From NCBI GenBank assembly GCA_016930435.1, contig JAFGGQ010000093.1:1-58391 (forward strand): 58,391 bases of DNA, written 5' to 3'. The DNA comes from a bacterium. GTDB taxonomy: Bacteria; UBP14; UBA6098; JAFGQG01. Of this stretch, positions 1,003 through 54,157 are shown piece after piece. Numbering within the stretch: position 1 is the stretch's first letter; every line of letters begins with the position of its first letter. A model generated the notes under the pieces. The model searched no databases, was not told the origin of the DNA, and saw only the letters and a list, made by a program, of their open reading frames with translations. A program made the position numbers and the translations under genes.

Positions 1003-1400
1003 TTCCCCTCCTGGAAAAAAGTCCTCTGTCTTCTAATTGCCCTCGATTATAATTACAAGCCTTTGTAGTTCATCCCCCTCCTTTCTCACTGTTCTGCATT
1101 TATATATTTCCGATAATAATTCACTCTTGTATAATTAACTAAAAAAATATAGGGGGAATGTTTCTCAAGATTGTTAACTGGATATAAATGAATTGTTAAT
1201 TTTGTATTAAGAAAGATAATTGGTTTTTCAGGGGTATTTTTATTGTATTACCAATTCAACAAGAAATCCGCGTTTTAAGAGGTTTTTAAATCATTAGGTT
1301 CATGTATTTTTTTTGTTCTTCTGTTTTTTTTTAAAAATAAAAAAAGCAATTATTGACGTTTTTATTTTTTTGTATTTCTTATTACCCAAAGGTGCATATT
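1003..1400. other. AT-rich divergent intergenic region
   Basis: About 400 bp without a gene between the porin-like gene (minus) and the nitroreductase (plus). It is very AT-rich, with long T runs at 1300-1380. A 7-bp inverted repeat AATTGGT/ACCAATT (1218-1224 and 1250-1256) could be an operator. TTGACG at 1353-1358 is a possible -35 for the nitroreductase operon, but the hexamer 17 bp downstream (TTCTTA) is a poor -10. No RNA gene or terminator is recognisable. Confidence 0.4.
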
Positions 1401-1976
1401 ATGAATTTCATAAATGTTGTTTTAGGCCGGAGGTCAATCCGGAAATTCAAACCGGATAAAGTGCCACGGGAACTGATCGAGAAGGTTTTAAATCTGGCCC
1501 TATGGGCGCCCTCCGCTATGAATTCCCAGAACTGGAAGTTCATTATCCTGAAAGGGCACAAGGTTGAGGAGCTTCGGGCTATTTCCGGGGTTGCTTTTAA
1601 AGAGCATGTCGAACCGGCATTAAACAAGGTATTCGCTAAGTATCCTGATGTGATCGGGGCGACCGGCAAGTATTTTGAAACGCTGGGCGGTTCTCCGGTG
1701 GCGATTGCCGTTTACCGGGGTTCTACGGTAGAGGGATTGATCCCCGATGTTGAGTCCGTGGCGGCTGCTACCCAGAACCTGGTCCTGGCTGCACACTTTT
1801 ACGGGTTAGGATCCTGCTGGATGACCGGAATATTGCCTTTAGCCGATAAGATAAATAAAATTACCGGTGAGAATGAACTGGAACTTCAGGCCATAGTAAC
1901 CCTGGGCTATCCGGATATAGAAGCCCGGGCACCAAGACGCAAAGAAGGGAGAGTAAAATGGATTGGTTGGGACTAA
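1401..1976 (+). CDS. Nitroreductase family protein
   Basis: A 191-residue FMN-dependent NAD(P)H oxidoreductase of the nitroreductase fold. The N-terminal RRSIRKFKPDKV and LWAPSAMNSQNWKF segments are the FMN-phosphate and flavin-ring motifs of the family. The C-terminal LAAHFYGLGSCWMTG and ALGYP-like VTLGYPD segments are also typical. An upstream in-frame start at 1353 lies in a T-rich non-coding stretch. The ATG at 1401 has AAAGGTG about 8 bases upstream and gives the family's normal N-terminus, so it is preferred. The gene overlaps the first ACAD by 19 bases, so the two are translationally coupled. The physiological substrate is unknown; its place at the head of an acyl-CoA oxidation operon suggests a flavin redox role in that pathway, which is inference. 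Confidence 0.85.
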   Translation: MNFINVVLGRRSIRKFKPDKVPRELIEKVLNLALWAPSAMNSQNWKFIILKGHKVEELRAISGVAFKEHVEPALNKVFAKYPDVIGATGKYFETLGGSPVAIAVYRGSTVEGLIPDVESVAAATQNLVLAAHFYGLGSCWMTGILPLADKINKITGENELELQAIVTLGYPDIEARAPRRKEGRVKWIGWD

Positions 1977-3016
1977 ACAAAGACCATCTTTTATTAGGAA
2001 AGGATATTGCCGAATTTGCGGTGAAGGAGTTAAAGGAAACGGTACTTGATTTTGACAAGGAGAGTAAGCTGTTCAGCCAACCCTGGCAAAAAGCGGCTCA
2101 ATTGGGGCTTTTTGGAATACTGCTTCCGGAATCGCTGGGGGGAGCGGAGATGGACCTTCTTTCCCTGATCGTCTGTCTGGAAGAACTGTCTGCGGTTTCA
2201 CCTTCTTTCGCCCTGGCGGTTGCCGGACAGAATGTTGCCGGTTATGCCATCCATAAATTCTGCTTGCTGCCCGATAAAGAAAGCATCCTAAAAAAAATAA
2301 TCAAAGGTGCCCCTTGCGGGATAAGCTTCGGGGATATCTGCAATCTCGAATGCGATAGCTTTGAAAACCAGGTTTCCGGTGAGAGCAGCTGGATATTGAA
2401 CGGCGAGAACTGCCAGTACTTCCTCTCCTTTGGAAGCTGTCGGGAATCCTGGTTTATCCTCCAGAATGACCGGTGCTGTGAATTCCGGAAAGAGGAGGAA
2501 TCCCTTGGTATGCGCAGTGCCGGGATGGGAAAATTTGCGGTCAGTAAAGCCAGCCTTAAAGAAGACCAGTTTCTCCAGGAAGACGGTGGTGTTATCATGG
2601 AGCTGTTCCGGGTTTGCGGCGCTGGTATTGCGGCTGGTATATCCATGGGCTGTTATGAGCAGGCTGTGCCCTATGCCCGGGAGCGTGTTCAGTTCGGGCG
2701 GCCCATTTCCAAGTTCGGGATGGTGCGTCAGATGCTTTCCGGGATTGAGGAATCCCGGCGGATCGGGAAGCTCCTCACCTATGATGCAGCCATTAAATTC
2801 GGCAAAGGGGACAAACTGGCCTCTTTGGTAGCCTCTACGGTAGCCCGTGACCTGGCCTTTGCCGCAGCTAACTATGCCGTACAGGTGCTGGGGGGCGCGG
2901 GATATACCAAGGACTATCAGGCCGAGATGTTCTTCCGGGACGCTAAAGCCCTGGAAATCCTCTTTGGCCCTCCCCAGGAAGAAAAGGAACTTATCGGTAA
3001 AATAATAAGCGATTAA
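1958..3016 (+). CDS. Divergent acyl-CoA dehydrogenase-like subunit lacking the catalytic Glu
   Basis: A 352-residue ACAD-fold protein, about 30 residues shorter than its neighbours. The N-terminal helical domain is recognisable (LGLFGILLPESLGGAEMD). The middle beta domain has lost the flavin-ring motifs: neither a SEPNAGSD-like nor an ITNG-like segment is present. The C-terminal domain keeps RERVQFGRPI (FAD pyrophosphate) and VLGGAGYTKDYQ (FAD adenine, contributed to the neighbouring subunit in ACAD dimers). The catalytic Glu of the canonical IYEGT motif aligns with Phe336 (ILFGPP), and the alternative isovaleryl-CoA dehydrogenase Glu position in helix G is Phe as well. The start ATG has GGGAGAG 8 bases upstream. 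It is therefore likely non-catalytic alone and a partner subunit of the next gene's product (inference). Confidence 0.8.
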   Translation: MDWLGLNKDHLLLGKDIAEFAVKELKETVLDFDKESKLFSQPWQKAAQLGLFGILLPESLGGAEMDLLSLIVCLEELSAVSPSFALAVAGQNVAGYAIHKFCLLPDKESILKKIIKGAPCGISFGDICNLECDSFENQVSGESSWILNGENCQYFLSFGSCRESWFILQNDRCCEFRKEEESLGMRSAGMGKFAVSKASLKEDQFLQEDGGVIMELFRVCGAGIAAGISMGCYEQAVPYARERVQFGRPISKFGMVRQMLSGIEESRRIGKLLTYDAAIKFGKGDKLASLVASTVARDLAFAAANYAVQVLGGAGYTKDYQAEMFFRDAKALEILFGPPQEEKELIGKIISD

Positions 3017-3034
3017 GATATAAGGGAGAATATA

Positions 3035-4180
3035 ATGCAATTTAAAGAATTTAGCAAAGAGCATCTGGAATTTCAGGAGGAAGTCAGGGACTTTGCCCAG
3101 AACACATTGAAACCCATGGCTGAAGATCTGGAACGGAAAAGCGAGTTCGCCATGGATTTAATCATGGAAATAGGCAAAAAGGGCTGGATGGGAATCCCCA
3201 TACCCCAAAAATACGGGGGAATGGGTAAGGATAATATCAGCTATATTTTAGCACTTGAGGAGCTGGCTAAGGTCTGCGGAGCAACAGCAATATTCGTGGC
3301 TGCGCATTGCTCCTTATGCGCCTGCCCTATTTATTACGATGGCACTGAAGAACAGAAGATGAAATATTTGGTACCACTTGCCAGCGGGAAAAAGATCGGT
3401 TCATTCGGGCTGTCCGAACCCAACGCCGGCTCCGATGCCGGGGGTACAGAAACTATGGCGGTTAAAGAAGGCAACCAGTGGATCATCAACGGCCAAAAAC
3501 GCTGGATAACCAACGGCTCCTATGCCGATGTGATAGTTTTTACCGCCCAGACTAATAAGGAACTCAGGCATCACGGTATCAATTCATTTATTGTGGAAAA
3601 AGGAACACCCGGATTTTCACCCGGGAACAAGGAAGATAAAATGGGGCTTCGAAGTTCCAATACCGCCGAATTGCTCTTTGATGATTGCCGGATACCCGAT
3701 GAAAATATGCTCGGAAAGGAAGGTGAGGGATTCAAGGTCTTCATGCGCACACTTGATGACGGCCGGATCAGCATTGGTGTCCTTGGCCTGGGTTTGGGCG
3801 AAGGAGCCCTGGAGGAGGGTATCAAGTTTGCTAAAGAAAACGAACGTGGCGGAAAACCCCTTATTAAATACCAGTGGGTGGAAAAGCTCTTCGCCGATAC
3901 TGCAACCGAGCTGGAAGCGGCCCGGCACCTCATTTACCATGCCGCCTACCTCAAGGATGCAAGGGTTAAATTATCCCGGGAAAGCGCTATGGCCAAACTC
4001 TACGCCTCCGAAGCGGGAACAAAGGCCTGCCGGAAAATGATGGACCTCATCGGTAAGGATGCCCTTAACCGGCTGTTTCCAATTCAGCGATTACTGAGGG
4101 ACGCCAAACTGATGGAGATAGGGGAAGGCACCTCAGAGGTTCAGAGAATAGTGATCTCACGGGAGTTGGTAGGCCGATAA
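3035..4180 (+). CDS. Acyl-CoA dehydrogenase with catalytic Glu but altered FAD-adenine motif
   Basis: A 381-residue ACAD. The flavin-ring and substrate motifs are intact (GLSEPNAGSDAGG about 125-137, RWITNGSYAD about 157-166, LRSSNTAELLFDDC), and the catalytic Glu is present as Glu364 in EIGEGTSEVQ. Unlike a normal ACAD, the two C-terminal FAD-adenine/pyrophosphate motifs are lost: the RERVQFG region reads KENERGGKPL, and the Q-x-x-GG-x-GY region reads DLIGKDALNR. In ACADs these residues serve the FAD of the partner subunit, so this protein looks complementary to the flanking Glu-less paralogues. The start ATG has AAGGGAG upstream. The acyl substrate cannot be read from the sequence. Confidence 0.85.
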   Translation: MQFKEFSKEHLEFQEEVRDFAQNTLKPMAEDLERKSEFAMDLIMEIGKKGWMGIPIPQKYGGMGKDNISYILALEELAKVCGATAIFVAAHCSLCACPIYYDGTEEQKMKYLVPLASGKKIGSFGLSEPNAGSDAGGTETMAVKEGNQWIINGQKRWITNGSYADVIVFTAQTNKELRHHGINSFIVEKGTPGFSPGNKEDKMGLRSSNTAELLFDDCRIPDENMLGKEGEGFKVFMRTLDDGRISIGVLGLGLGEGALEEGIKFAKENERGGKPLIKYQWVEKLFADTATELEAARHLIYHAAYLKDARVKLSRESAMAKLYASEAGTKACRKMMDLIGKDALNRLFPIQRLLRDAKLMEIGEGTSEVQRIVISRELVGR

Positions 4181-4218
4181 GCAGCCGTAAGATGATAACC
4201 CAAAAAGGGGAAATGAGT

Positions 4219-5349
4219 ATGGATTTCAAATTGAGCGAAGACCAGAAACTGATTCGGGATATGGTTCGTGAATTCGCTCAGAAGGAGCTTCCTGACCTCG
4301 CGGCCCAGATCGACGAAAAGCCCGGGTTCCCCCATCAGATCATAAGTAAAATGGCTCAACTGGGCTTGTTCGGTTTGTTTATCCCGGAAGCCTTTTCAGG
4401 TGGGGGAATGGACCTGCTGAGCCTGATCCTGACTGTTGAAGAACTGAGCAAACACTGCTCTTCTATCGGAATTTTCACTGCCCTTCAAGCTGGAGTAATC
4501 CCTTACGCAATTACTAGATACGGTACCCAAAAGCAAAAGGAGAATTACCTGCCCCGGATAGCCGCCGGGAAACTACTGGCATCAATCAGTCTGAATGAAC
4601 CCTTGTTCCTGAACCAGGATAAAACCCCTGTACTTACATGCAGGCTGGAAGGAGAAAATTATATTCTGAATGGATTCAACCGTTTGGTGTTAGCCGCTGA
4701 GGAGGCAAATTTATTCCTGCTCATCGCTCAAGATGAAAAACAGCAATGGAAATTGTTCCTGGTTGAGAATGGGATACCCGGTTTAAAAATAACGGGCATT
4801 GAGAACTCGATGAGCCTGAGGGATTTGAAATTAGGCCAAATGGTTTTAGATAATTGCATAATACCCGCCGGGAACCTTCTGGGGAAAGGGGATATTCAAC
4901 TGGAAATAAGGGCCGATATTTTTGAAACGGGTAAGCTGCTGATAGCCGCAGTAAGCCTTGGTATTGCTGAGATGGCTCTCCTTAAGGCCCGGGATTATTC
5001 GCTGGAGCGAAAGCAATTTGAAACGGTAATCGCTGATTTCGAAGGGATGCGATGGATGATGGCTACCATGCAGAGCAAGGTAACTCAGATCAGAGCGCTC
5101 CTGGCCCACGCCGTGAACCTGAAAACTGCAGGTGAACCTGCCGCTTCTGAAATCGCTATCGCAAAAATGGTGGCTGCCGAATCGGCCATTGAAATAACCC
5201 TCGATGCCATTCAGGTTTATGGCGGATACGGCTATATGAAGGATTTTCCCCTGGAGCGTTATTTCCGGGAGGCCAAAGCCACGGAATTTATTCTGGGAAC
5301 AAGGTCCCAGCAACTGAATATTATCGCTAATAAGTTAATACAAAAATAA
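4219..5349 (+). CDS. Second divergent acyl-CoA dehydrogenase-like subunit lacking the catalytic Glu
   Basis: A 376-residue ACAD-fold protein. The N-terminus MDFKLSEDQKLIRDM is classic. The ATG at 4219 is chosen over in-frame ATGs at 4192 and 4213 because AAAGGGG lies about 9 bases upstream and the start matches the paralogue at 5386. The beta domain is degenerate: LASISLNEPLFLNQDK in place of GxxxLTEPNAGSD, and NRLVLAAEEAN in place of RFITNGTASD. The C-terminal FAD-adenine motif is retained (QVYGGYGYMKDFPLERYFREAK), with an SLERKQFE pyrophosphate region. The catalytic Glu is replaced by Leu359 (EFILGTRSQ), and the helix-G alternative is Gly. It likely acts as a structural/FAD-binding partner rather than a catalyst. 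It is independently diverged from the 1958 protein. Confidence 0.8.
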   Translation: MDFKLSEDQKLIRDMVREFAQKELPDLAAQIDEKPGFPHQIISKMAQLGLFGLFIPEAFSGGGMDLLSLILTVEELSKHCSSIGIFTALQAGVIPYAITRYGTQKQKENYLPRIAAGKLLASISLNEPLFLNQDKTPVLTCRLEGENYILNGFNRLVLAAEEANLFLLIAQDEKQQWKLFLVENGIPGLKITGIENSMSLRDLKLGQMVLDNCIIPAGNLLGKGDIQLEIRADIFETGKLLIAAVSLGIAEMALLKARDYSLERKQFETVIADFEGMRWMMATMQSKVTQIRALLAHAVNLKTAGEPAASEIAIAKMVAAESAIEITLDAIQVYGGYGYMKDFPLERYFREAKATEFILGTRSQQLNIIANKLIQK

Positions 5350-5385: not shown

Positions 5386-6528
5386 ATGGATTTTAACTTG
5401 ACCGATGATCAAAAGCTGCTGCAGAAAATGGTTCGGGATTTTGCGGAAAAAGAAATGCGGGAGAAAGCAGTAGAGATTGACGAGAGCCGGGAATTCCCCT
5501 TTGATACCCTGAAAAAGATGGCTTCTCTGGGACTTATGGGAATGGTGGTTCCCGAGGAGTATCATGGTGTTGGTATGGATTTTGTATCTGTGGCCATCGC
5601 GGTAGAGGAAATATCCAGGGTTTGCGCTTCAACCGGGGTGATCGTGGCCGTTCAGAACACCCTGGCTGAATATCCCATTGTGGCTTTCGGGACCGAAGAA
5701 CAGAAAAAGAAGTACTTGCCTGACATGGCAACCGGAAAGAAGATAGGATGCATCTGTCTCACCGAACCCAATGCTGGTTCGGACGTTGCGGGATTTGAAA
5801 CTGTCGCCGTGGACAATGGGGACCATTGGGTATTGAATGGCGCAAAGCGTTTTATCACCAATGGTACCGCATCCGATGTCTTTATTACCTTCGCCTATAC
5901 CGACCGGGAGAAAAGACATAAGGGGATGGATGTATTCATCGTTGATAAAGATTCACCCGGTCTCTCCGTGGGCAAGCACGAAAACCTGATGGGAATCCGC
6001 GCCACCGGGAACTGCGAAGTGATCTATGATAATTGTATTGTACCGAAAGAAAACCTTCTGGGTCCCAAAAGCGAGGGCTTCAAAACCGCTATGAAGATCC
6101 TGGATGTGAGCCGGATCGACATCGGCGCTCAGGCGGTTGGTATTGCTCAAAGCGCCCTGGATGAAGCCGTAAAGTACTCCAGGGAGCGAGTTCAATTCGG
6201 TGTCCCGATCTGCACCTTTCAAATGATTCAGGATATGCTGGCACAGATGGCTACCAAGATCGAGGCGGCTCGGCTCCTGGTCAGGCAATCAGCCTTCATG
6301 AAGGATGCCGGGATACCCCGTTTCTCACTGCAATCCTCTATGGGAAAATATTACGCATCCGAGATCGCCGTTGAATGCGCCCGGATGAGCCTCCAGATCC
6401 ACGGCGGCGTGGGCTATACCAAAGATTACCCTATCGAAAGGATATACCGGGATGCCAAAATACTGGAGATCTATGAAGGCACTACCCAGGTTCAAAAAAT
6501 CGTTATCGCCCGTTCACTCCTGAAATAA
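5386..6528 (+). CDS. Acyl-CoA dehydrogenase (complete, canonical)
   Basis: A 380-residue complete short-chain/butyryl-type ACAD, the only one of the four with every motif: CLTEPNAGSDVAG, RFITNGTASD, GIRATGNCEVIYDNC, SRERVQFGVPI, IHGGVGYTKDYPIERIYRDAK and catalytic Glu364 in EIYEGTTQVQKIV. It oxidises a saturated acyl-CoA to the trans-2-enoyl-CoA and passes electrons to electron-transfer flavoprotein, encoded downstream at 10709-12438. It has a strong ribosome binding site, GGAAGGAGG, 5 bases before the ATG. Chain length or branching cannot be called. Given the downstream leucine-type genes, isovaleryl- or 2-methylbutyryl-CoA are candidates along with butyryl-CoA, although the Glu position is the short-chain type, not that of isovaleryl-CoA dehydrogenase. 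Confidence 0.93.
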   Translation: MDFNLTDDQKLLQKMVRDFAEKEMREKAVEIDESREFPFDTLKKMASLGLMGMVVPEEYHGVGMDFVSVAIAVEEISRVCASTGVIVAVQNTLAEYPIVAFGTEEQKKKYLPDMATGKKIGCICLTEPNAGSDVAGFETVAVDNGDHWVLNGAKRFITNGTASDVFITFAYTDREKRHKGMDVFIVDKDSPGLSVGKHENLMGIRATGNCEVIYDNCIVPKENLLGPKSEGFKTAMKILDVSRIDIGAQAVGIAQSALDEAVKYSRERVQFGVPICTFQMIQDMLAQMATKIEAARLLVRQSAFMKDAGIPRFSLQSSMGKYYASEIAVECARMSLQIHGGVGYTKDYPIERIYRDAKILEIYEGTTQVQKIVIARSLLK

Positions 6529-6584: not shown

Positions 6585-7721
6585 GTGTCTGCCGGAGATC
6601 TGGAAAAGCATGATGTATTGAGCTGTATTCAATGTGGACGTTGCACCGCCGGTTGTCCGGTTTCCATCCGGACTACTTTTAATATCAGGGGTACTATAAA
6701 CCTCAACTTAAGGGAACGGAAGAAATGGATACAGCCCCAGGATATATGGAGTTGCACCACCTGCCATACCTGCGCTTCGCGCTGTCCGAAGGGCGTAGGC
6801 ATTGTCGATTACATCATGGGATTGAGGAGCTATCAGGTGGAGCGCGGGAAGATAGACCCAGCCGCCAGGGATGCCCTGGAGAGCATCCTGAAGCACGGTA
6901 ACCCGTGGGGCAGAGTGCGGGAAAAAAGATCCGATTGGATCGGGGAAAATAAGGTGCGCATCCTTCAGGAAGGTGAATCCACAGAGGTACTCCTCTTCGT
7001 AGGCTGTACACCTGCGTATGATCCCAAGGCTCAAAAATCCGCCCAGGCCCTTAGCCGCATCCTTGCCATCGCCGGGGTGGACTTCGCCATAATGGGCAAC
7101 TCCGAAACCTGTTGCGGTAATGAAGTTAAAAGAATGGGAGAGCTGGGCCTCTTCGAAATGCTGGTAGAAGATAATACCAACCTCTTCTCCAAATACAAAT
7201 TTAACAAACTGGTCACCATCTCCCCCCATTGCTACAATACATTTAAAAATGAATACCCTAACCTGGGTGATAAGGTCATACATTACACCCAGTTCCTGGT
7301 TGAATTGTCTGAGAAGGGCAAACTTAAGCTATCTAACGATAATGAAGCTAAGGCGATCTTCCACGATCCATGCTTTCTTGGAAAACAGAATCTGATTTAT
7401 GAGGAGCCGCGAACCCTGCTCAAGGCTGTTTTAAAGGAAGAGCTGCTGGAGTTCGACCGGAACCGTGAACGCAGCCAATGCTGTGAAGGCGGCGGCGGCC
7501 GGATGTGGATAGAAGTTGATTCCGATAAACCCCGAACCGCCGAAGAACGGGTCAGGGATGCCCATTATTACGGGGCTGAAATCCTGGCTACCAGTTGCCC
7601 ATTCTGCCTTCTTACCCTCTCCGACGCGGTAAAAACAGCGGGATTGGAGGATAAACTTCAAGTCAAAGATATCTGTTCCATTATATCACCCGGCGAAGGG
7701 GAAAAAGATGGCCAGACTTGA
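6585..7721 (+). CDS. HdrC/HdrB-like (CCG-domain) iron-sulfur oxidoreductase
   Basis: 378 residues with no membrane segment. The N-terminal ferredoxin-like part binds two [4Fe-4S] clusters (C14/17/20/24 in CIQCGRCTAGC; C57/60/63/67 in CTTCHTCASRC), as in HdrC or GlpC. Two CCG domains follow, as in HdrB: about 141-225 with TCCGNE, and about 262-350 with QCCEGGGGR and a closing SCPFC. The first CCG domain closes with SPHC instead of CPxC, so one cluster ligand of that half is missing. The start is GTG (AAAGGA 10 bases upstream). Proteins of this class take electrons from ETF or act in heterodisulfide-reductase-type complexes. Its place between ACADs, etfBA and an HdrA-like module suggests it links them (inference). 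Confidence 0.88.
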   Translation: MSAGDLEKHDVLSCIQCGRCTAGCPVSIRTTFNIRGTINLNLRERKKWIQPQDIWSCTTCHTCASRCPKGVGIVDYIMGLRSYQVERGKIDPAARDALESILKHGNPWGRVREKRSDWIGENKVRILQEGESTEVLLFVGCTPAYDPKAQKSAQALSRILAIAGVDFAIMGNSETCCGNEVKRMGELGLFEMLVEDNTNLFSKYKFNKLVTISPHCYNTFKNEYPNLGDKVIHYTQFLVELSEKGKLKLSNDNEAKAIFHDPCFLGKQNLIYEEPRTLLKAVLKEELLEFDRNRERSQCCEGGGGRMWIEVDSDKPRTAEERVRDAHYYGAEILATSCPFCLLTLSDAVKTAGLEDKLQVKDICSIISPGEGEKDGQT

Positions 7722-8245: not shown

Positions 8246-10645
8246 GTGCAAAAGTTTGTGATCCTATTTTGCATTTTGGCGCTGGCTACGGGATTAGCTG
8301 CCGCTAACTGGACCTTTATGGTCTATCTTGATGGTGATAATAATCTGGAAGGTGCGGGGATCGACGATATGAATGAGATGGAAAGCGTAGGCTCGAACTC
8401 CAACGTTAACATCGTGGTTCAGTTTGACCGGATAGATGGTTATGATAACAGTAATGGCAACTGGACCGGTACCCGCCGATTTCTCATTCAACACGATTCT
8501 AATCCCTCAACTATAACCTCACCGGTTGTCCAGGATTTGGGGGAAGCAGATATGGGCAATCCCAATACCCTCCGCAATTTTGTACAATGGACACTTAGCA
8601 ATTATCCCGCCACCCATTATTGCCTTGTACTCTGGAACCACGGATCGGGCTGGGAAAAAGGAAAGGCCAGCGGGTTTTTTAACGACCCGGAGATCGACCG
8701 GGTAAGCCGCCCGGTGCGAGGGGTTACAGATAATCCCACCCGCCATTTCTTTACGCTTGAGAGCGGGGAAGGACCCATAAAGGCCATCTGCCAGGATGAA
8801 ACCAACGGGAGTATCCTTAAAAATCACGATGTTGCCACTGCCCTTTCCGGTATTGAGATGGACATCATCTGCTCTGACGCCTGCCTTCAAGGGATGATCG
8901 AGGTCGCATACGAATGGCGAAACAATGCCGATATTATCATCGGTTCAGAGGAGACCGAACCGGGTGACGGCTATCCCTACGATCTTATCCTGGGACACCT
9001 AACCGGAAACCCGGGAATGTCGTCTGAACAATTGGCCACGACCATTGTGAACGATTACGGCGCTTCATATAGCAGTTCACCGGACCATAAGGAGACACAG
9101 TCCGCGGTTCGGGTTTCCAATTTACCCTCTTTAATGACCGCCCTGGATAATTTTGCTGCAGCCATGATCAGCTCCGGGAATTTCAGCGCCATTCTCACTG
9201 CCCGTGGGGCTACCGAATCCTTCGATGTCCCTAATAATATGGACCTCTGGCATTTTGCACATAACGTTGGCGGGGCTGTCCCATCCGTTTCATCCTCCGC
9301 AAATGCCCTTAAAACTGCGATCAATAATGCCATTATCGAGGAATATCACTCTACCGGCCATCCCAATGTCCATGGCCTGGCTGTTTACTGCCCCGTTAAC
9401 GCCTCCCAGTATGACGGCGCATATACTACCTCCGCAAACCTGGATATGGTCGCTGACCACCAGTGGGACGAGTTCCTTAACCAGCTCTATACCGGTGGCG
9501 GCAGCAGCGGAGAGGTCGTGGATTATTATGAACCAAATGATGTCCCCAGCTCAGCCTATGGGCCACTACCCGAATTCGTGGTCTTTTCCAGCTATTGTTC
9601 CAGCGACGGGGATAGCGATTTTTATACCTTCTTCGTTGGAGGCAATACCAACGCTGAGATATACCTGGATGGACCCGATGGAGATGAAGATTTTGACCTG
9701 TACCTCTATAATGACGACTACGATATTATAGCTTACTCCGAAACCTATACCGCTGATGAGTATATCGAGATGAGCTTATCTGCCGGGCAGTACTGGATCG
9801 AGGTCTATAATTACGGTTCAGGCAGCAATAATCCCTATGCTCTTGCATGGGCTTATTCATCGGGAATGGGCTCCCAGGGCGGTTCAGGTTGGCTGAGCTA
9901 CGACTGGTTCTACGAAGGAGGACCGGAAGACCTGGGCTGGAGCGATGCCGATGCAATATGCGTCTATTTCAACCCACCGGAACCACCATACTCCCTCGAA
10001 GGGATAGCATATTACATGGATATCGGAGCCGGGGATGGCAGCTTTTACCCAATGCTCATCGATATGTTCGATTGGCTGGTAGATCCTTTTACCCTTCTCT
10101 TCCCCCCCGAATACGAAGGATGGTTCGTTCTGGAAGTCTCCGACGTCATCATTGCCACCGATTTTTTCGTGGGCTTTATTTATAATGAATACGGAGACGT
10201 CCCCCTGATCGGTTATGATGATTACTGGTCCGGGCGGGACTACTTTTATTATATTGACGATGATGCCTTTGAAAGCTTCGATGTTACCCTCTATATCCGG
10301 GCATATCTCCGTAAGATCGGACCTTCCGGGGTGGACGAATACCTCGTCCTGGATAACAAACATCTGCCGCCTTCCATTCATTCAAGCTATCCTAACCCCT
10401 TTAATATGGCGACTTCTATACAGGTTAATATACCCGCCGGGCTGCCTAACTGCAGCGTGGATATCTATGACATGTTGGGCAAAAAGGTCTGTAACCTTCA
10501 CCAGGGACCAATCAATGGCGGTACTTATCACTTTTACTGGAATGGCCGGAATGAATCCAATATGGTGATGCCATCCGGTAATTATTTCGTAACTCTGGCT
10601 AGCGAGAAGGGTAGCGATACCCGCCAAATTATCTTTTTAAAATAA
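8246..10645 (+). CDS. Secreted clostripain-family (C11) cysteine protease with T9SS-like C-terminal domain
   Basis: A 799-residue exported protease. Signal peptide about 1-20 (VILFCILALATGLAAA). The peptidase C11 domain (about 21-410) carries the catalytic dyad His132 (LWNHGSGW) and Cys213 (CSDACLQGMIE). A PPC-like beta domain (about 425-545; YEPNDVPSSA, GDSDFYTFFV, DEDFDLYLYN) follows, then a Tyr/Asp-rich beta region (about 555-690) and a C-terminal sorting-type domain with SSYPNPFNMAT, DIYDMLGKKV and PSGNYFVTL, like those used by type IX-type secretion. The start is GTG (GGAG 6 bases upstream). C11 enzymes cleave after Arg or Lys. It probably digests extracellular protein; its position inside an electron-transfer gene run suggests coupling of proteolysis to amino-acid oxidation (inference). 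Confidence 0.92.
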   Translation: MQKFVILFCILALATGLAAANWTFMVYLDGDNNLEGAGIDDMNEMESVGSNSNVNIVVQFDRIDGYDNSNGNWTGTRRFLIQHDSNPSTITSPVVQDLGEADMGNPNTLRNFVQWTLSNYPATHYCLVLWNHGSGWEKGKASGFFNDPEIDRVSRPVRGVTDNPTRHFFTLESGEGPIKAICQDETNGSILKNHDVATALSGIEMDIICSDACLQGMIEVAYEWRNNADIIIGSEETEPGDGYPYDLILGHLTGNPGMSSEQLATTIVNDYGASYSSSPDHKETQSAVRVSNLPSLMTALDNFAAAMISSGNFSAILTARGATESFDVPNNMDLWHFAHNVGGAVPSVSSSANALKTAINNAIIEEYHSTGHPNVHGLAVYCPVNASQYDGAYTTSANLDMVADHQWDEFLNQLYTGGGSSGEVVDYYEPNDVPSSAYGPLPEFVVFSSYCSSDGDSDFYTFFVGGNTNAEIYLDGPDGDEDFDLYLYNDDYDIIAYSETYTADEYIEMSLSAGQYWIEVYNYGSGSNNPYALAWAYSSGMGSQGGSGWLSYDWFYEGGPEDLGWSDADAICVYFNPPEPPYSLEGIAYYMDIGAGDGSFYPMLIDMFDWLVDPFTLLFPPEYEGWFVLEVSDVIIATDFFVGFIYNEYGDVPLIGYDDYWSGRDYFYYIDDDAFESFDVTLYIRAYLRKIGPSGVDEYLVLDNKHLPPSIHSSYPNPFNMATSIQVNIPAGLPNCSVDIYDMLGKKVCNLHQGPINGGTYHFYWNGRNESNMVMPSGNYFVTLASEKGSDTRQIIFLK

Positions 10646-10708: not shown

Positions 10709-11470
10709 ATGAATAGCGTAGTATGCATTAAAAGGGTCCCCGAAACAGCCGAAGCGACCCTGAAAATCGATCCTGCAAATCGAAAGCTGGAGGTCGATAA
10801 TCTGGTATTCGGTATTAACGAAGCGGATAATTACGCTTTGGAACAGGCTTTATTACTGGAGGAAGAATTCGGTGGTGAAGTGATCGTTGTTTCCGTCGGT
10901 CCCCCCGAAACCGATGAGATCATTAGAATGGCGTTGGCCAAAGGCGCCGGTAGGGCAATCAGAATTTCCCCGGAAAATCTAAGTGAACTTGACCCCTACA
11001 GCATAGCGAAGCTGATTGCCCATGAACTGGAGGACGAGGAGTATGACCTGATATTTACCGGCTGCCAGGCTTCCGATGACGGCTTCAGCCAGGTAGGCGT
11101 AGCGTTGGCTGAATTGCTGGGGATCCAGCACCTTTCAATGGCGGTCAAAATGGAAACCGAAGAGGAATCCGCAACTGTAAACCGGGAGCTGGAGGGTGGC
11201 TTGATGGCCCAGTACAAGTTAAACTTTCCCGCTGTTATCACCATTCAAACCGGCCTTAACGAGCCCCGTTATGCATCTATTCTGGGTATTAAACGGGCTG
11301 GCAGCAAGGAGATCCGGGTCGTGGAACCGGGCTCCTGGAACGAGAAAATGGTTGAGCTGAATAAACTCTCTTTCCCACCTCCCGGCAAAATGGCCGAGAT
11401 CTTCCAGGGCAGCCCCGCTGAAACAGCTGAAAAAGTATGTGAGGTTCTTAAAACGAAGGGATTATTATGA
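10709..11470 (+). CDS. etfB: Electron transfer flavoprotein beta subunit
   Basis: A 253-residue ETF beta subunit. Typical segments are VCIKRVPETAE, the nucleotide-binding SVGPPETDEIIRMALAKGAGRAI, and FTGCQASDDGFSQVG. The recognition-loop region NRELEGGLMAQ plus TIQTGLNEPRY is of the kind found in ETFs that work with iron-sulfur CCG proteins rather than the mitochondrial ETF dehydrogenase. AAGGAG precedes the ATG. It forms the AMP/FAD heterodimer with EtfA, whose start overlaps this stop by ATGA. It takes electrons from the ACADs upstream. Whether it bifurcates (NADH + ferredoxin) cannot be settled by eye. Confidence 0.95.
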   Translation: MNSVVCIKRVPETAEATLKIDPANRKLEVDNLVFGINEADNYALEQALLLEEEFGGEVIVVSVGPPETDEIIRMALAKGAGRAIRISPENLSELDPYSIAKLIAHELEDEEYDLIFTGCQASDDGFSQVGVALAELLGIQHLSMAVKMETEEESATVNRELEGGLMAQYKLNFPAVITIQTGLNEPRYASILGIKRAGSKEIRVVEPGSWNEKMVELNKLSFPPPGKMAEIFQGSPAETAEKVCEVLKTKGLL

Positions 11471-12438
11471 GCAAAGAAATATTCGTTATTATTGAGCATC
11501 GCCGGGGCACAATCCGGGACGTAAGCTATGAATTATTGACAAAAGCAAATGATTTTGCTAATAATATTGGTGGCAGTACTGCTGCGGTTATCCTTGGAAA
11601 TGAGCTTGATGAAATGGTTCAGCATCTCAAGTCATCGGCCCATAAGATAATTGCCCTGAAAAACGAAAAACTGGGGGATTTCCATTCAGAATACTATCAG
11701 GAAGCTCTTAAATCGATCATTGAGGAGCGAAGTCCTCTCCTTGTTATGCTGGGACATACCTCGGCTTCTTACGATCTTGCTCCCGCCCTTGCCGTAGCAA
11801 TGGGACTCCCGCTTATTTCAGGGTGCTCCGATCTGAGGCTGGAAGGGAATAAAGTAATTACCCTCAACCAGGTATATGGTGGCAAGATAAACGCCGAATA
11901 CTCCTTTGAGACCGAAAAGGGTGGCATTATTACCCTGTTGCCCGGTTCTGTTCCCGCCAAGCCTGGTGGATTGAGCGCAGAAGTTGAAGAGGTGAACGTA
12001 TCCTTCGAACGGGAATTTGAAGATAAGGTTTTCATTCAATTTGTGGAGTCCGCGGCGGGAGAGATTGATATTACGCAGGCAGAGAAGATCATTGCCATTG
12101 GCCGGGGCATAAAGGAAGAAGATAATATTGCCATGATCGAGGAGTTCGCGCAGTCTATCGGAGCGGTGGTTGCCTGTTCCCGGCCTATAGTTGATGCCGG
12201 TTGGCTGCCCAAGGACAGGCAGGTAGGCTCATCCGGTAAAACCGTAAAACCAAAAGTGTATATCGCGCTGGGTATCAGCGGAGACTTTCAGCACCTCATG
12301 GGAATGCGTAATGCCGATACCATAATTGCCGTGAATAAGGACCCCAACGCCCCTATCTTCGGAGCCGCGGATTATGGTATCGTCGATGACCTCTTCAAGG
12401 TTGTTCCGGCGATCAAGGATAAATTAGCACAACTATGA
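11467..12438 (+). CDS. etfA: Electron transfer flavoprotein alpha subunit
   Basis: A 323-residue ETF alpha subunit. The C-terminal FAD-binding domain is canonical: SRPIVDAGWLPKDRQVGSSG, KVYIALGISGDFQH, IIAVNKDPNAPIF and ADYGIVDDLFKVVP. The N-terminal domain includes LGHTSASYDLAPALA and GGKINAEY. There is no extra N-terminal ferredoxin domain, so this is the short form. It is translationally coupled to etfB (ATGA overlap). The next gene is 155 bp away, with a small CAGGA/TCCTG hairpin (12467-12482) and no clear promoter, so read-through into the HdrA/Nuo module is plausible. Confidence 0.95.
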   Translation: MSKEIFVIIEHRRGTIRDVSYELLTKANDFANNIGGSTAAVILGNELDEMVQHLKSSAHKIIALKNEKLGDFHSEYYQEALKSIIEERSPLLVMLGHTSASYDLAPALAVAMGLPLISGCSDLRLEGNKVITLNQVYGGKINAEYSFETEKGGIITLLPGSVPAKPGGLSAEVEEVNVSFEREFEDKVFIQFVESAAGEIDITQAEKIIAIGRGIKEEDNIAMIEEFAQSIGAVVACSRPIVDAGWLPKDRQVGSSGKTVKPKVYIALGISGDFQHLMGMRNADTIIAVNKDPNAPIFGAADYGIVDDLFKVVPAIKDKLAQL

Positions 12439-12593: not shown

Positions 12594-13868
12594 ATGAAAA
12601 AAATAGGTGTATTCGTCTGTCATTGTGGTCTGAATATTGCCCGAACGGTTGATGTGAAGAGGATTGCAGAGGAGATAGGTAAACAACCGGGTGTATTGGT
12701 ATCTGAAGATTACCCTTATATGTGTTCGGATCCCGGGCAGAGCTTGATCAGGGATAAGATCAAGGAGTATGATCTGGACCGGGTTGTAGTGGCTTCCTGC
12801 TCGCCGACGCTTCATGAACCTACCTTTATGAGGGTACTGGAAACTGCAGGGTTGAATAAGTATTGTTTTCAAATGGCCAATATCCGTGAACACTGCTCCT
12901 GGGTCCATGAGGATCGGGAAGAAGCGACCGGGAAGGCCCTTATCATTATAAAAGCAGCCTTGGCAAAGGTACGCCTGTTAGAACCTCTGGAGGATTTTCA
13001 GGTGGATGTAACACCCGAAGCATTAGTTGTAGGAGGTGGTATTGCCGGGATACAAACCTCTCTGGATATCGCCGAATCCGGCTTCCGGGTCCACCTGGTG
13101 GAGCGGGACCCATCCATCGGCGGCCACATGGCCCAGCTTGATAAAACATTCCCCACACTGGACTGCTCAGCTTGTATCCTGACCCCAAAAATGGTCGATG
13201 TGGCTCAACATCCCAATATTGAACTCTATACCTACGCCGAAGTGGAAAAAGTAGATGGTTTCGTAGGCAACTTCAAGGCCACTATCAAATTGAAAGACCG
13301 CCATATTCAAGCAGACAAATGCACCGGCTGCGATCTCTGTACAAGTAATTGCCTGGTCAGATACATTCCGCAAACACGAGCAAAACCATCCGTAAAAACA
13401 AAGCTGGACAAGGAGATGATGGACTTGCTGGATGATCTGGTCCGTAAATTCGGTCGTGAAGAGAGCGCTTTGATCCAGGTCCTGCAAGCAGTCAACCGCT
13501 ATTACCGCTATCTGCCCGAACTCTCTCTGAAATATCTCAGTGAGTGTTTTGATATACCTCTCACCAGGGTTTATCACCTTGCCACGTTCTATAGCTCTTT
13601 CAGCTTGGTACCCCGTGGTGAGCACCTGGTAAGGGTTTGTATGGGGACTGCCTGCCACGCCCGTGGCGCGCCCGAAGTGCTGGATATGCTCCGGAGCATT
13701 CTAAAGATCGAACCGGGTCAGACAACAGAAGACCAGAAATTCACCCTTCAAACCGTAGGCTGCCTGGGATGCTGCGCGCTTGGCCCCGTCGTGGTAGTCG
13801 ATGAAGACTATTACCAGATGACACCAGATAAGGCTGAAAAAATCATCCAATCTTATAAGAAAAAATAA
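12594..13868 (+). CDS. HdrA N-terminal half fused to a NuoE-type [2Fe-2S] domain
   Basis: A 424-residue fusion. Residues 1-253 match the first part of heterodisulfide reductase subunit A: the N-terminal Cys-containing domain (GVFVCHCG, SCSPTLHEP, ANIREHCSW), the FAD Rossmann motif VVGGGIAGIQ (145-154), RDPSIGGHMAQLDKTFP, DCSAC, and one [4Fe-4S] site C243/246/249/253 (CTGCDLCTSNC). HdrA then stops, and residues about 272-424 are a NuoE/HydA-type thioredoxin-like domain with [2Fe-2S] ligands C349, C354, C390 and C394 (CMGTAC, CLGCC). The second half of HdrA is found in the product of 15760-17553. The gene for NuoF lies 14 bases downstream. Start: ATG with only a weak GGGA upstream. Its role is probably electron transfer between NADH, FAD and iron-sulfur carriers. 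Confidence 0.87.
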   Translation: MKKIGVFVCHCGLNIARTVDVKRIAEEIGKQPGVLVSEDYPYMCSDPGQSLIRDKIKEYDLDRVVVASCSPTLHEPTFMRVLETAGLNKYCFQMANIREHCSWVHEDREEATGKALIIIKAALAKVRLLEPLEDFQVDVTPEALVVGGGIAGIQTSLDIAESGFRVHLVERDPSIGGHMAQLDKTFPTLDCSACILTPKMVDVAQHPNIELYTYAEVEKVDGFVGNFKATIKLKDRHIQADKCTGCDLCTSNCLVRYIPQTRAKPSVKTKLDKEMMDLLDDLVRKFGREESALIQVLQAVNRYYRYLPELSLKYLSECFDIPLTRVYHLATFYSSFSLVPRGEHLVRVCMGTACHARGAPEVLDMLRSILKIEPGQTTEDQKFTLQTVGCLGCCALGPVVVVDEDYYQMTPDKAEKIIQSYKKK

Positions 13869-13882
13869 GCATAGGAACAGTA

Positions 13883-15736
13883 ATGCCCAAGTTCAAAAAA
13901 ATAGAAGACCTCACCAGATACAAAAAGCAAGTTGAAAGCCAGAGAGAATCTCAAACAAAAACCATAACGGTTTGCGGAGGGACCGGCTGCATAGCCTTGG
14001 GAGCCAGCAAAGTGATTCAATCCTTCCATGAAGCGGTTAGCAGGCACCAGCTAAATGAACAGGTGAAGGTATTGGTTACCGGATGCCATGGTTTTTGTGA
14101 GAAGGGCCCTCTGGTAGTGATACGCCCGAAGGGTATATTCTACCATAGCGTAAAACCGAAGGATGCAGAAGAGATCGTTGAAAAAAGCGTAATAGGGGAC
14201 GAGATTGTGGAGCGTTTACTCTTTGTGGATCCGGTCAACCATGAAAAGTATAGCCGGGAAGACCAGGTTCCATTCTATGAAAAACAGATGCGCCTGATCT
14301 TCGGTAACAATGGATTTTTGAATCCTACCAGCATTGATGATTATATTGCTATCGGGGGATATTCCGCACTTGCCAGGGCGTTAAAGGAAATGTCCCCGGA
14401 CCAGATTATCGAGGAGATTGTTAAATCGGGTTTAAGGGGTCGAGGTGGTGGTGGTTTTCCTACAGGCAAAAAATGGAAGTATTGCCGCCGTGCCGAAGGG
14501 GATTTGAAATATGTGATCTGCAATGCCGACGAAGGGGATCCTGGCGCATACATGGACCGTTCACTCCTGGAAGGAAATCCTCATTCGGTTCTGGAAGGTA
14601 TGATCATTGGGGCTTATGCGATCGGATCCCGTGAGGGTTATATATATGTCAGGGAAGAATATCCCTTAGCCCGGGAGCATTTTGGCAAGGCACTGGCTGA
14701 CGCTCACGAGTATGGTTTATTGGGAGAAGGGATAATGGGCACCGATTTCTGCTTTAAGGTTAACATCAGCGTAGGTGGCGGAGCCTTTGTATGCGGGGAA
14801 TCTACAGCCCTTATGGCTTCAATCGAAGGCCGGCCCGGTGAACCCCGGCCCAAACACTTTCATACCGTTGAAAGGGGCCTCTACGAACGGCCAACTACCC
14901 TGAACAATGTGGAAACCTGGGCAAATGTGCCCCTGATCATAAATAAAGGCGCTGACTGGTATAGCCAGATCGGGACCGAGGGCAGCAAGGGAACCAAGAT
15001 ATTCTCGCTGGTTGGCAAGGTGAACAACACCGGACTGGTGGAAGTCCCCATGGGAATGACGCTTCGGGAGATCATCTACGGGATCGGCGGGGGGATCAAA
15101 GGGGGAAAGAAGTTCAAGGCGGTACAAACCGGAGGACCATCCGGAGGCTTGATCCCCGAACAGTTCCTTGACACCGGCGTGGATTTCGACCAGCTCACCA
15201 AGCTGGGCTCTATGATGGGCTCCGGTGGAATGATTGTGCTCGATGAGGAAAATTGTATTGTGGATATAGCCAAATACTTCATCGATTTTCTCAAGGATGA
15301 ATCCTGCGGGAAATGCATCCCCTGTCAGGAGGGCCTGATTCAGATCAGCGCTATTCTCAAACGGATAACCGAGGGTAAAGGTAAAGAAGAGGACCTGGAT
15401 ACCCTCCAGGATATTTCCTGGTTGATGCAGAACGCATGTTTGTGCGAGCTGGGTAAATCCGCTCCTAATCCGCTGATTACCGCATTACGGTATTTCGCTC
15501 CTGAGTTCGATGCCCACATCAGGGATCAGCGCTGTCCGGCCGGGGTTTGTAAGGCTTTGATCACCTTCAGGATAAATCCGGAAAAATGCACAGGCTGTAC
15601 TATCTGTGCCATAAAATGCCCGGAGAACGCAATTTCAGGCGAGAAAGGCCAACCCCACGTGATCGACCCTCAAAAATGTACCCGCTGTAAAATATGCTAT
15701 AGCGTTTGTAAGTTCGGAGCAGTGGAAAGAGAGTAA
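13883..15736 (+). CDS. NuoF/HydB-like NADH-binding flavoprotein subunit
   Basis: A 617-residue NADH-oxidising subunit. In order: an N-terminal thioredoxin-like [2Fe-2S] domain (C31 and C36 in CGGTGC, then CHGFC near 73-77); the NADH/FMN domain (GLRGRGGGGFPTGKKW about 184-199, CNADEGDPGAYMDRSLLEGNPH, GGGAFVCGESTALMASIEG); an SLBB domain; the [4Fe-4S] site SCGKCIPCQEG; and a C-terminal two-cluster ferredoxin (CTGCTICAIKC, CTRCKICYSVC). This is the HydB-type layout of bifurcating hydrogenases and NADH-linked Hdr systems. No hydrogenase gene lies nearby. AGGAA precedes the ATG. Together with the flanking genes it forms a NuoEFG-like unit joined to a split HdrA. Confidence 0.93.
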   Translation: MPKFKKIEDLTRYKKQVESQRESQTKTITVCGGTGCIALGASKVIQSFHEAVSRHQLNEQVKVLVTGCHGFCEKGPLVVIRPKGIFYHSVKPKDAEEIVEKSVIGDEIVERLLFVDPVNHEKYSREDQVPFYEKQMRLIFGNNGFLNPTSIDDYIAIGGYSALARALKEMSPDQIIEEIVKSGLRGRGGGGFPTGKKWKYCRRAEGDLKYVICNADEGDPGAYMDRSLLEGNPHSVLEGMIIGAYAIGSREGYIYVREEYPLAREHFGKALADAHEYGLLGEGIMGTDFCFKVNISVGGGAFVCGESTALMASIEGRPGEPRPKHFHTVERGLYERPTTLNNVETWANVPLIINKGADWYSQIGTEGSKGTKIFSLVGKVNNTGLVEVPMGMTLREIIYGIGGGIKGGKKFKAVQTGGPSGGLIPEQFLDTGVDFDQLTKLGSMMGSGGMIVLDEENCIVDIAKYFIDFLKDESCGKCIPCQEGLIQISAILKRITEGKGKEEDLDTLQDISWLMQNACLCELGKSAPNPLITALRYFAPEFDAHIRDQRCPAGVCKALITFRINPEKCTGCTICAIKCPENAISGEKGQPHVIDPQKCTRCKICYSVCKFGAVERE

Positions 15737-17553: not shown

Positions 17554-17573
17554 TAACCACTTTGAATTTAACA

Positions 17574-18566
17574 ATGACTTCTGATGAACTTTTAGATCGT
17601 TTTTTTAACGGGGACATGGTTGCCCTGGCGAAGGTTATTTCCCTGGTGGAGAACCGCTCCCCGGATCATGAGCGGGTATTGGCCAGACTATTCCGGGAAT
17701 GCCGTAATGCATACCGTGTAGGGATTACAGGCCCCCCCGGCGCGGGTAAAAGCACGGTGGTAGATAAGATCGCCATGCACCTGGCCGAAGATGGGACGGA
17801 AATGGGCATCGTGGCCGTTGATCCCACCAGTCCCTTTACCGGTGGAGCAGTACTGGGCGACCGCATCCGAATGAAGGACCTCTATAAATACGATAATATC
17901 TTCATTCGAAGTATGGCTACCCGGGGTTCGTTGGGGGGATTGGCATCCGCAACTAAAGATGTCCTGGTTGCCCTCGATGCTTATGGCAAAGAACTGATTC
18001 TGGTTGAAACCGTGGGCGTGGGACAGGTTGAACTGGATGTGGTGGATGCCTGCGATACAGTCGTTGTTATGCTAACTCCGGAGGCCGGCGATTCGGTTCA
18101 GGCTATGAAGGCCGGACTACTGGAAATCGCCGATGTATTCGTCGTCAATAAGGCCGACCGGGACGGAGCCGAAATATTCGCTATTGAACTGCAATCCATC
18201 CTGGAGATCAAGGAGAATAATATGCCCAAATCATCCAAACCCCACTGGAAAACACCCATCGTCCTGACCGTAGCACCTGAAGACCGGGGAATCTCCGATT
18301 TATGGAACACTATAGAAAAACACAGGGATTTCATTATACGTGAGGGCATATTCGAAACACACCGGAAACTCCAGATCAAGCACAAGATCGAGCAGATAAT
18401 CGAGAATAAGATCAGATTGCTGGCTCAGCGAAAATTTTTAACCGGTATCGATATCGATCATATTGCCAGCGGGGTATATGAGGGCCAGATCGATCCATAT
18501 AGTGCGGTAAATAAGTACTGCCGGCTGAAGGAGTTTGAAAATATTTTCGAGGGTGATCAATTATGA
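17574..18566 (+). CDS. meaB: Methylmalonyl-CoA mutase-associated GTPase MeaB (ArgK family)
   Basis: A 330-residue G3E-family GTPase that gates cofactor loading and protects methylmalonyl-CoA mutase. Walker A GPPGAGKST, then VDPTSPFTGGAVLGDR, MATRGSLGG, ETVGVGQVELDVVDACD, TPEAGD and the base-recognition NKADRDGAE are all canonical, as is the C-terminal dimerisation arm. Neither candidate start (TTG 17562 or ATG 17574) has a clear ribosome site; the ATG is taken as the conservative choice. The stop overlaps the next gene, encoding the cobalamin-binding subunit, by ATGA. It therefore belongs to propionate/valine/isoleucine carbon flow through succinyl-CoA. The catalytic mutase chain is not in this window. 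Confidence 0.93.
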   Translation: MTSDELLDRFFNGDMVALAKVISLVENRSPDHERVLARLFRECRNAYRVGITGPPGAGKSTVVDKIAMHLAEDGTEMGIVAVDPTSPFTGGAVLGDRIRMKDLYKYDNIFIRSMATRGSLGGLASATKDVLVALDAYGKELILVETVGVGQVELDVVDACDTVVVMLTPEAGDSVQAMKAGLLEIADVFVVNKADRDGAEIFAIELQSILEIKENNMPKSSKPHWKTPIVLTVAPEDRGISDLWNTIEKHRDFIIREGIFETHRKLQIKHKIEQIIENKIRLLAQRKFLTGIDIDHIASGVYEGQIDPYSAVNKYCRLKEFENIFEGDQL

Positions 18567-54092: not shown

Positions 54093-54157
54093 CAAACTCT
54101 CCTTCCGATACTCCAGTTAAATATAACGTAAGCGTATTCTTTATAAGATGCTTATTT

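Follow-up and report, generated by a model that had tools for sequence, protein, structure and literature searches.

Operon organization

The window, by which we mean the whole 58,391-nucleotide stretch analyzed here, opens with a forward-strand operon comprising genes for a nitroreductase, four acyl-CoA dehydrogenases (ACADs), and a CCG iron-sulfur protein. These are followed, in order, by genes for a short putative exported protein, a C11 peptidase, EtfB, EtfA, an HdrA-NuoE fusion, a NuoF-like protein, a further iron-sulfur protein, and MeaB (Table 1). The four ACAD open reading frames, to which we refer by their first positions (1958, 3035, 4219, and 5386), are all present and intact; 4219 starts with ATG, and a longer version from the ATG at 4192 is possible. 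All four products matched PF02771 and PF00441 above cutoff, and by PF00441 the genome encodes five ACADs, four in this operon and one on another contig (the fifth ACAD).

Table 1. Features of the window, with the residues on which the comparison of the ACADs rests
Feature	Position	Strand	Remarks
Nitroreductase-family gene	1398..1976	+	PF00881, 112.8 bits; operon head; overlaps the 1958 gene by 19 bases
Putative dead ACAD subunit 1 (P0001)	1958..3016	+	F336 at catalytic Glu; R243, Q309, G313 kept
F336 codon, replacing catalytic Glu	2963..2965	+	Alignment
Putative catalytic ACAD subunit (P0002)	3035..4180	+	E364, F124, L126, S127, T159 kept; trans-FAD residues gone
N269 codon, replacing SCAD R297 (neighbor-FAD Arg)	3839..3841	+	Gap-free alignment with rat SCAD
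D337 to K341 codons, replacing SCAD Q365...G369 (QxxGG motif)	4043..4057	+	Alignment with rat SCAD
Putative dead ACAD subunit 2 (P0003)	4219..5349	+	L359 at catalytic Glu; R264, Q332, G336 kept
L359 codon, replacing catalytic Glu	5293..5295	+	Alignment
Complete ACAD (P0004)	5386..6528	+	No loss of catalytic Glu, flavin contacts, or trans-FAD residues
Iron-sulfur protein, two CCG domains, HdrC/HdrB-like	6585..7721	+	PF02754, Fer4
C11 (clostripain-type) peptidase	8246..10645	+	Secretion-type C-terminal domain
EtfB	10709..11470	+	
EtfA	11467..12438	+	
Fusion of HdrA N-terminal part and NuoE-like domain	12594..13868	+	
NuoF-like subunit (Complex1_51K)	13883..15736	+	
MeaB, methylmalonyl-CoA mutase GTPase	17562..18566	+	PF03308, 297 bits
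Open reading frame of 4125 codons	41718..54095	-	Unannotated here

The nitroreductase, the four ACADs, and the CCG protein occur in identical order in a sister genome of the same family (G001; contig of MAG Zod_Metabat.733), where EtfB and EtfA follow the CCG protein with some other genes between. The same nitroreductase gene precedes the ACAD cluster there and a 4219-type gene in G011. The CCG protein, which likely represents the electron acceptor side, adjoins these ACADs in G001, G290, and G291 and belongs to the same cluster in G152, a genome from a different phylum.

Other features of the region were recorded in passing. The HdrA portion of the fusion protein is ∼256 amino acids long and connects Etf, Hdr, and NADH chemistry in an unusual way; the gene after EtfA in G152 instead encodes a long HdrA-like protein (L068:11971-15318). 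The C11 peptidase gene sits within the electron-transfer operon and is found at the same place in G001, with 68% identity. A single open reading frame of 4125 codons lies on the reverse strand (41718 to 54095).

Two ACADs without a catalytic base

The original prediction held that the 1958 and 4219 products had lost the catalytic base at both known positions, and column-by-column alignment with the 5386 product and solved ACADs bore this out. F336 of 1958 and L359 of 4219 occupy the position of the catalytic Glu (E392 in SCAD), and at the alternative Glu position in helix G, 4219 has Gly and 1958 has Phe or a gap; no Glu stands at either known position. Isovaleryl-CoA and long-chain ACADs also lack the Glu of the C-terminal loop but carry the one in helix G, whereas 1958 and 4219 have neither and by sequence do not qualify as catalytically competent ACADs, which have one or the other. 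We refer to such Glu-less proteins as dead.

The flavin-ring motifs of the beta domain are likewise gone, as had been claimed: 4219 has Asn at SCAD S155, a position deleted in 1958, and both have Leu at T187; the PF02770 middle domain goes undetected in 1958 and scores 36 bits in 4219, versus 95 to 97 in 3035 and 5386. The C-terminal motif, QxxGGxGY, is retained in both, as is RxQF. Single-chain AlphaFold models predict full ACAD folds for both dead proteins (pLDDT 86 in each case), matching SCAD over nearly the full length with Z scores of 44 for 1958 and 50 for 4219. The G001 orthologues of 1958 and 4219 show the same losses, with Leu at the catalytic Glu position in both; given the conserved gene order, neither chance nor a sequencing artifact accounts for them. 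One element of the original description did not hold. The order of the genes is dead, catalytic, dead, complete, with catalytic ACADs alternating with the dead ones, which do not adjoin each other. The gene between the dead ones (3035) is itself incomplete in a complementary manner, a point that the original prediction missed.

Reciprocal residue losses at the FAD site

In human SCAD, one monomer holds the isoalloxazine ring with F152, L154, S155, and T187, the adjacent monomer contributes further FAD contacts through R297, Q365, and G369, and the Q365H substitution stops tetramer assembly (PMC13027082). Using these published contacts, we placed residues on SCAD through a gap-free alignment of 3035 with the rat enzyme; those reaching FAD from the adjacent monomer are called trans residues below. 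The 3035 product retains the first set and the catalytic Glu (F124, L126, S127, T159, and E364) but has N269, D337, and K341 where SCAD has R297, Q365, and G369, and the corresponding residues of the G001 orthologue are H, D, and P. The dead proteins present the opposite picture: 1958 keeps the trans residues as R243, Q309, and G313 and 4219 as R264, Q332, and G336, and both have lost S155, T187, and the Glu. Every scored residue, and thus both halves of the FAD site, is present in the 5386 product.

The 1958 and 3035 genes are 18 bases apart, in an order held in G001, and show the two features expected of a heterotetrameric ACAD, namely, adjacent catalytic and Glu-less genes, with the catalytic member having lost the neighbor-FAD residues that the other keeps. 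Judged by its residues, the seemingly intact 3035 protein is half an enzyme, the missing half of which would be supplied by the dead subunit. Two chains hold each FAD of an ACAD dimer: one gives the flavin contacts, substrate pocket, and catalytic Glu, and the ADP part is contacted by the Arg and QxxGG motif of the other, which reaches across. Since 3035 has only the first half and 1958 only the second, either homodimer would be without a complete FAD site, and a 1958-3035 pair would hold exactly one. We consider it very probable, from these sequence features, that 1958 and 3035 form a heteromer, and only slightly less so that the dead ACADs in general act as structural partner subunits of heteromeric ACADs.

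A contig scan with the 1958 family matched the G001 contig only, so sampling beyond G001 came from a genome search. We scored four trans positions (Arg, Phe, Gln, and GG) in 77 distinct full-length ACADs, which were gathered from matches to these proteins and are not an unbiased sample. Six of the 77 lack the Glu at both positions, and all six retain all four trans positions. Conversely, only three catalytic ACADs have lost all four, namely, 3035, its G001 orthologue, and one G152 gene, and in each case the nearest upstream ACAD gene encodes a dead ACAD. One true shifted-Glu enzyme (L012) was recognized in the survey.

The same dead/catalytic pair thus occurs in a second phylum. In the tree, the G152 catalytic partner is sister to 3035 (support, 99) and the dead partner is sister to 1958 (moderate support, 86), a pattern that joint inheritance of the pair would produce. 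Two short open reading frames, one MerR-like by sequence, lie between the paired genes in G152 (L068:5948-8934). Its relatives G290 and G291 encode a 3035-like enzyme that is intact, and the stretches read in them, on a short contig in the case of G290, showed no dead ACAD.

Comparison with known ACADs

Heteromeric ACADs of steroid degradation are alpha2beta2 complexes in which each pair of subunits has a single catalytic Glu and FAD lies at the interface; the isoalloxazine and the Glu belong to the alpha subunit, and the ADP-ribose is held by the beta subunit (PMC8399759; PMC11153573). The split of duties is the same in ChsE1-ChsE2, ChsE4-ChsE5, IpdE1-IpdE2, Tcur3481-type enzymes (PDB 4X28 and 6WY8), and the CasC fusion: the Glu and flavin contacts lie on one subunit, and the ADP portion of FAD is held by residues of the Glu-less one. 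Actinobacterial genes retrieved with the model for IpdE2, from the steroid-ring heterotetramer family, served as a positive control and showed the same signature: the IpdE2-type proteins have lost the Glu and flavin contacts and kept R, Q, and mostly GG, and the catalytic genes beside them carry the helix-G Glu and have lost R, Q, and G. The nearest solved structures to the control proteins include 6WY8 and 4X28, both steroid heteromers. ChsE/IpdE dead subunits were not among the best 50 fold matches of 1958 or 4219, which is uninformative because many ACADs tie.

The arrangement described here differs in enzyme type and setting. The catalytic subunit is of the butyryl-CoA/SCAD type with its Glu in the C-terminal loop, unlike the actinobacterial partners tested, which use the helix-G Glu, and its genes lie in an Etf/Hdr/Nuo-like operon with MeaB rather than among steroid degradation genes. 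Human SCAD and the Bcd enzymes of C. difficile and A. fermentans, the type to which 3035, 4219, and 5386 belong by sequence and which both dead proteins match by fold, are homotetramers with both FAD-site halves in every chain. We did not recover common descent with ChsE/IpdE subunits: the actinobacterial dead subunits form their own branch (support, 100), and those of the window group with G152 and SCAD-type sequences, although one long actinobacterial branch leaves the deep placement uncertain. As the window subunits fall outside the actinobacterial clade, the heteromeric arrangement most likely arose separately from the steroid one, as read from these sequence relationships.

As a candidate for a known anaerobic heteromer, we weighed ThnO/ThnT from anaerobic naphthalene degradation and rejected it, ThnO being a homotetramer. 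A text search of the literature for heteromeric or inactive ACADs outside steroid degradation returned one steroid review only. We also observed many Glu-less ACADs with trans-FAD residues in actinobacterial genomes (L139:251-2478; L130-L138), some adjoining catalytic ACADs without them.

Probable partner of the second dead subunit

The 5386 enzyme appears self-sufficient, and the 4219 protein would complete the FAD site of another catalytic ACAD, most likely the fifth. Across 17 sampled genomes of the class, 13 encode a fifth-type ACAD. Its trans residues are eroded in all four genomes with a 4219-type gene (this genome, G001, G010, and G011) and intact in 9/9 where no such gene was found. 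The Arg is lost in each eroded case, with Q or G additionally lost in three; in this genome, the Arg alone is lost (H267) and Q and G are kept, which makes dependence on a donor less certain. For the association of the 4219-type gene with erosion, a Fisher test that ignores kinship gave P = 0.0014, and an independent-pairs test, with three pairs only, gave P = 0.25. The tree forces three separate erosions of the fifth ACAD, each accompanied by a 4219-type gene. Two of these genes are known in part: that of G011 from its N-terminal 108 residues, which are 70% identical to the G015 dead protein and fall inside its clade, and that of G010 from a sequence cut ahead of the catalytic position.

The main rival is that 4219 pairs with its neighbor 5386, tuning an enzyme also able to work alone. 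The two genes are adjacent, the order dead-catalytic, dead-complete is conserved in G001, and G011 has the start of a 4219-type gene and the end of a 5386-type gene at contig ends. However, 5386 needs no donor, and in G010 and G015 a 4219-type gene is present and no 5386-type gene was found; the only two ACADs found in G010 are the dead 4219-type protein and one with eroded trans residues. We regard pairing with 5386 as possible but rather unlikely, and we favor, with some reserve, completion by 4219 of the FAD site of the fifth ACAD encoded elsewhere. More tentatively, and with doubt outweighing confidence, this lineage may have repeatedly turned homomeric short-chain ACADs into half-enzymes: a 4219-type donor would free an unlinked ACAD, the FAD-holding residues of which then decayed at least three times, and the ACADs would depend on one another as linked half-sites, through shared donors or mixed tetramers, and would no longer be independent enzymes.

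Selection and alternative roles

Location in an Etf operon and the absence of catalytic residues would also suit a regulatory or scaffolding role that has nothing to do with FAD binding, such as the docking of EtfBA. This reading leaves unexplained why every complete dead protein keeps the trans-FAD residues and why 3035 lost exactly those, and we think it improbable. Some ACAD-fold enzymes carry out other chemistry, a precedent for 1958 and 4219 being enzymes with a different base or none, but the flavin contacts are lost besides the Glu, and part of the flavin-binding beta domain is deleted in 1958, making this quite improbable.

The original prediction also proposed that selection retains the dead genes for a role without catalysis of their own, and rates of change agree. 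Identity between the window and G001, which represent sister genera, is 56% for 1958, 47% for 4219, 83% for 3035, and 81% for 5386, and neutral simulation at that synonymous divergence gives an expectation of ∼7% protein identity. Synonymous sites between the two are saturated (pS, 0.76 to 0.90), so we compared identity with the simulation and took dN/dS from a closer pair, the congeners G010 and G015, in which the 4219-type gene has a value of ∼0.13. Divergence in both dead proteins is greatest in the beta domain and smallest in the C-terminal domain, which bears the trans residues. That the dead genes are decaying pseudogenes is consistent with their faster evolution relative to 3035 and 5386 but is already contradicted, to the point of being scarcely credible, by identity far above neutral, the dN/dS value in one pair, the more constrained C-terminal domain, open frames in every complete copy, and invariant trans residues. 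The suggestion that the two diverged independently fits the tree, which implies two or more origins of the dead state for the seven dead sequences and places the window genes in different clades. The residue patterns support a more specific role for the dead proteins than was first proposed, namely, supplying the half of the FAD site that a catalytic ACAD has lost.

Proposed mechanism and implications

We propose that 1958 and 3035 probably form an obligate alpha2beta2 complex with two FADs, in which 3035 would supply the base, flavin contacts, and substrate pocket and 1958 would clamp the ADP part. Physical pairing, stoichiometry, FAD content, and activity are what we infer for this pair. Electrons would pass to EtfBA and on to the iron-sulfur and Hdr/Nuo-like proteins of the same operon. 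MeaB in this operon, together with putative methylmalonyl-CoA mutase-like genes near the homologous G152 cluster (read from open reading frames), hints at a short- or branched-chain acyl-CoA substrate, which is a guess.

In the literature found, heteromeric ACADs with a dead subunit are described for steroid degradation. The principle is thus known from steroid degraders; here it occurs in butyryl-CoA/SCAD-type enzymes of anaerobe-like uncultured bacteria, most likely with a separate origin. Such an origin in short-chain enzymes of Etf operons would make reciprocal division of labor a repeatable evolutionary route, and the natural series of intact, partly eroded, and fully eroded enzymes would capture a homomer becoming an obligate heteromer. 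It also suggests a sequence rule, in which loss of R297/Q365/G369 on one side and of the Glu on the other marks obligate partners. Annotation pipelines list such partners as separate, fully working enzymes, and searching public genomes for the two half-signatures could show where heteromeric ACADs occur.
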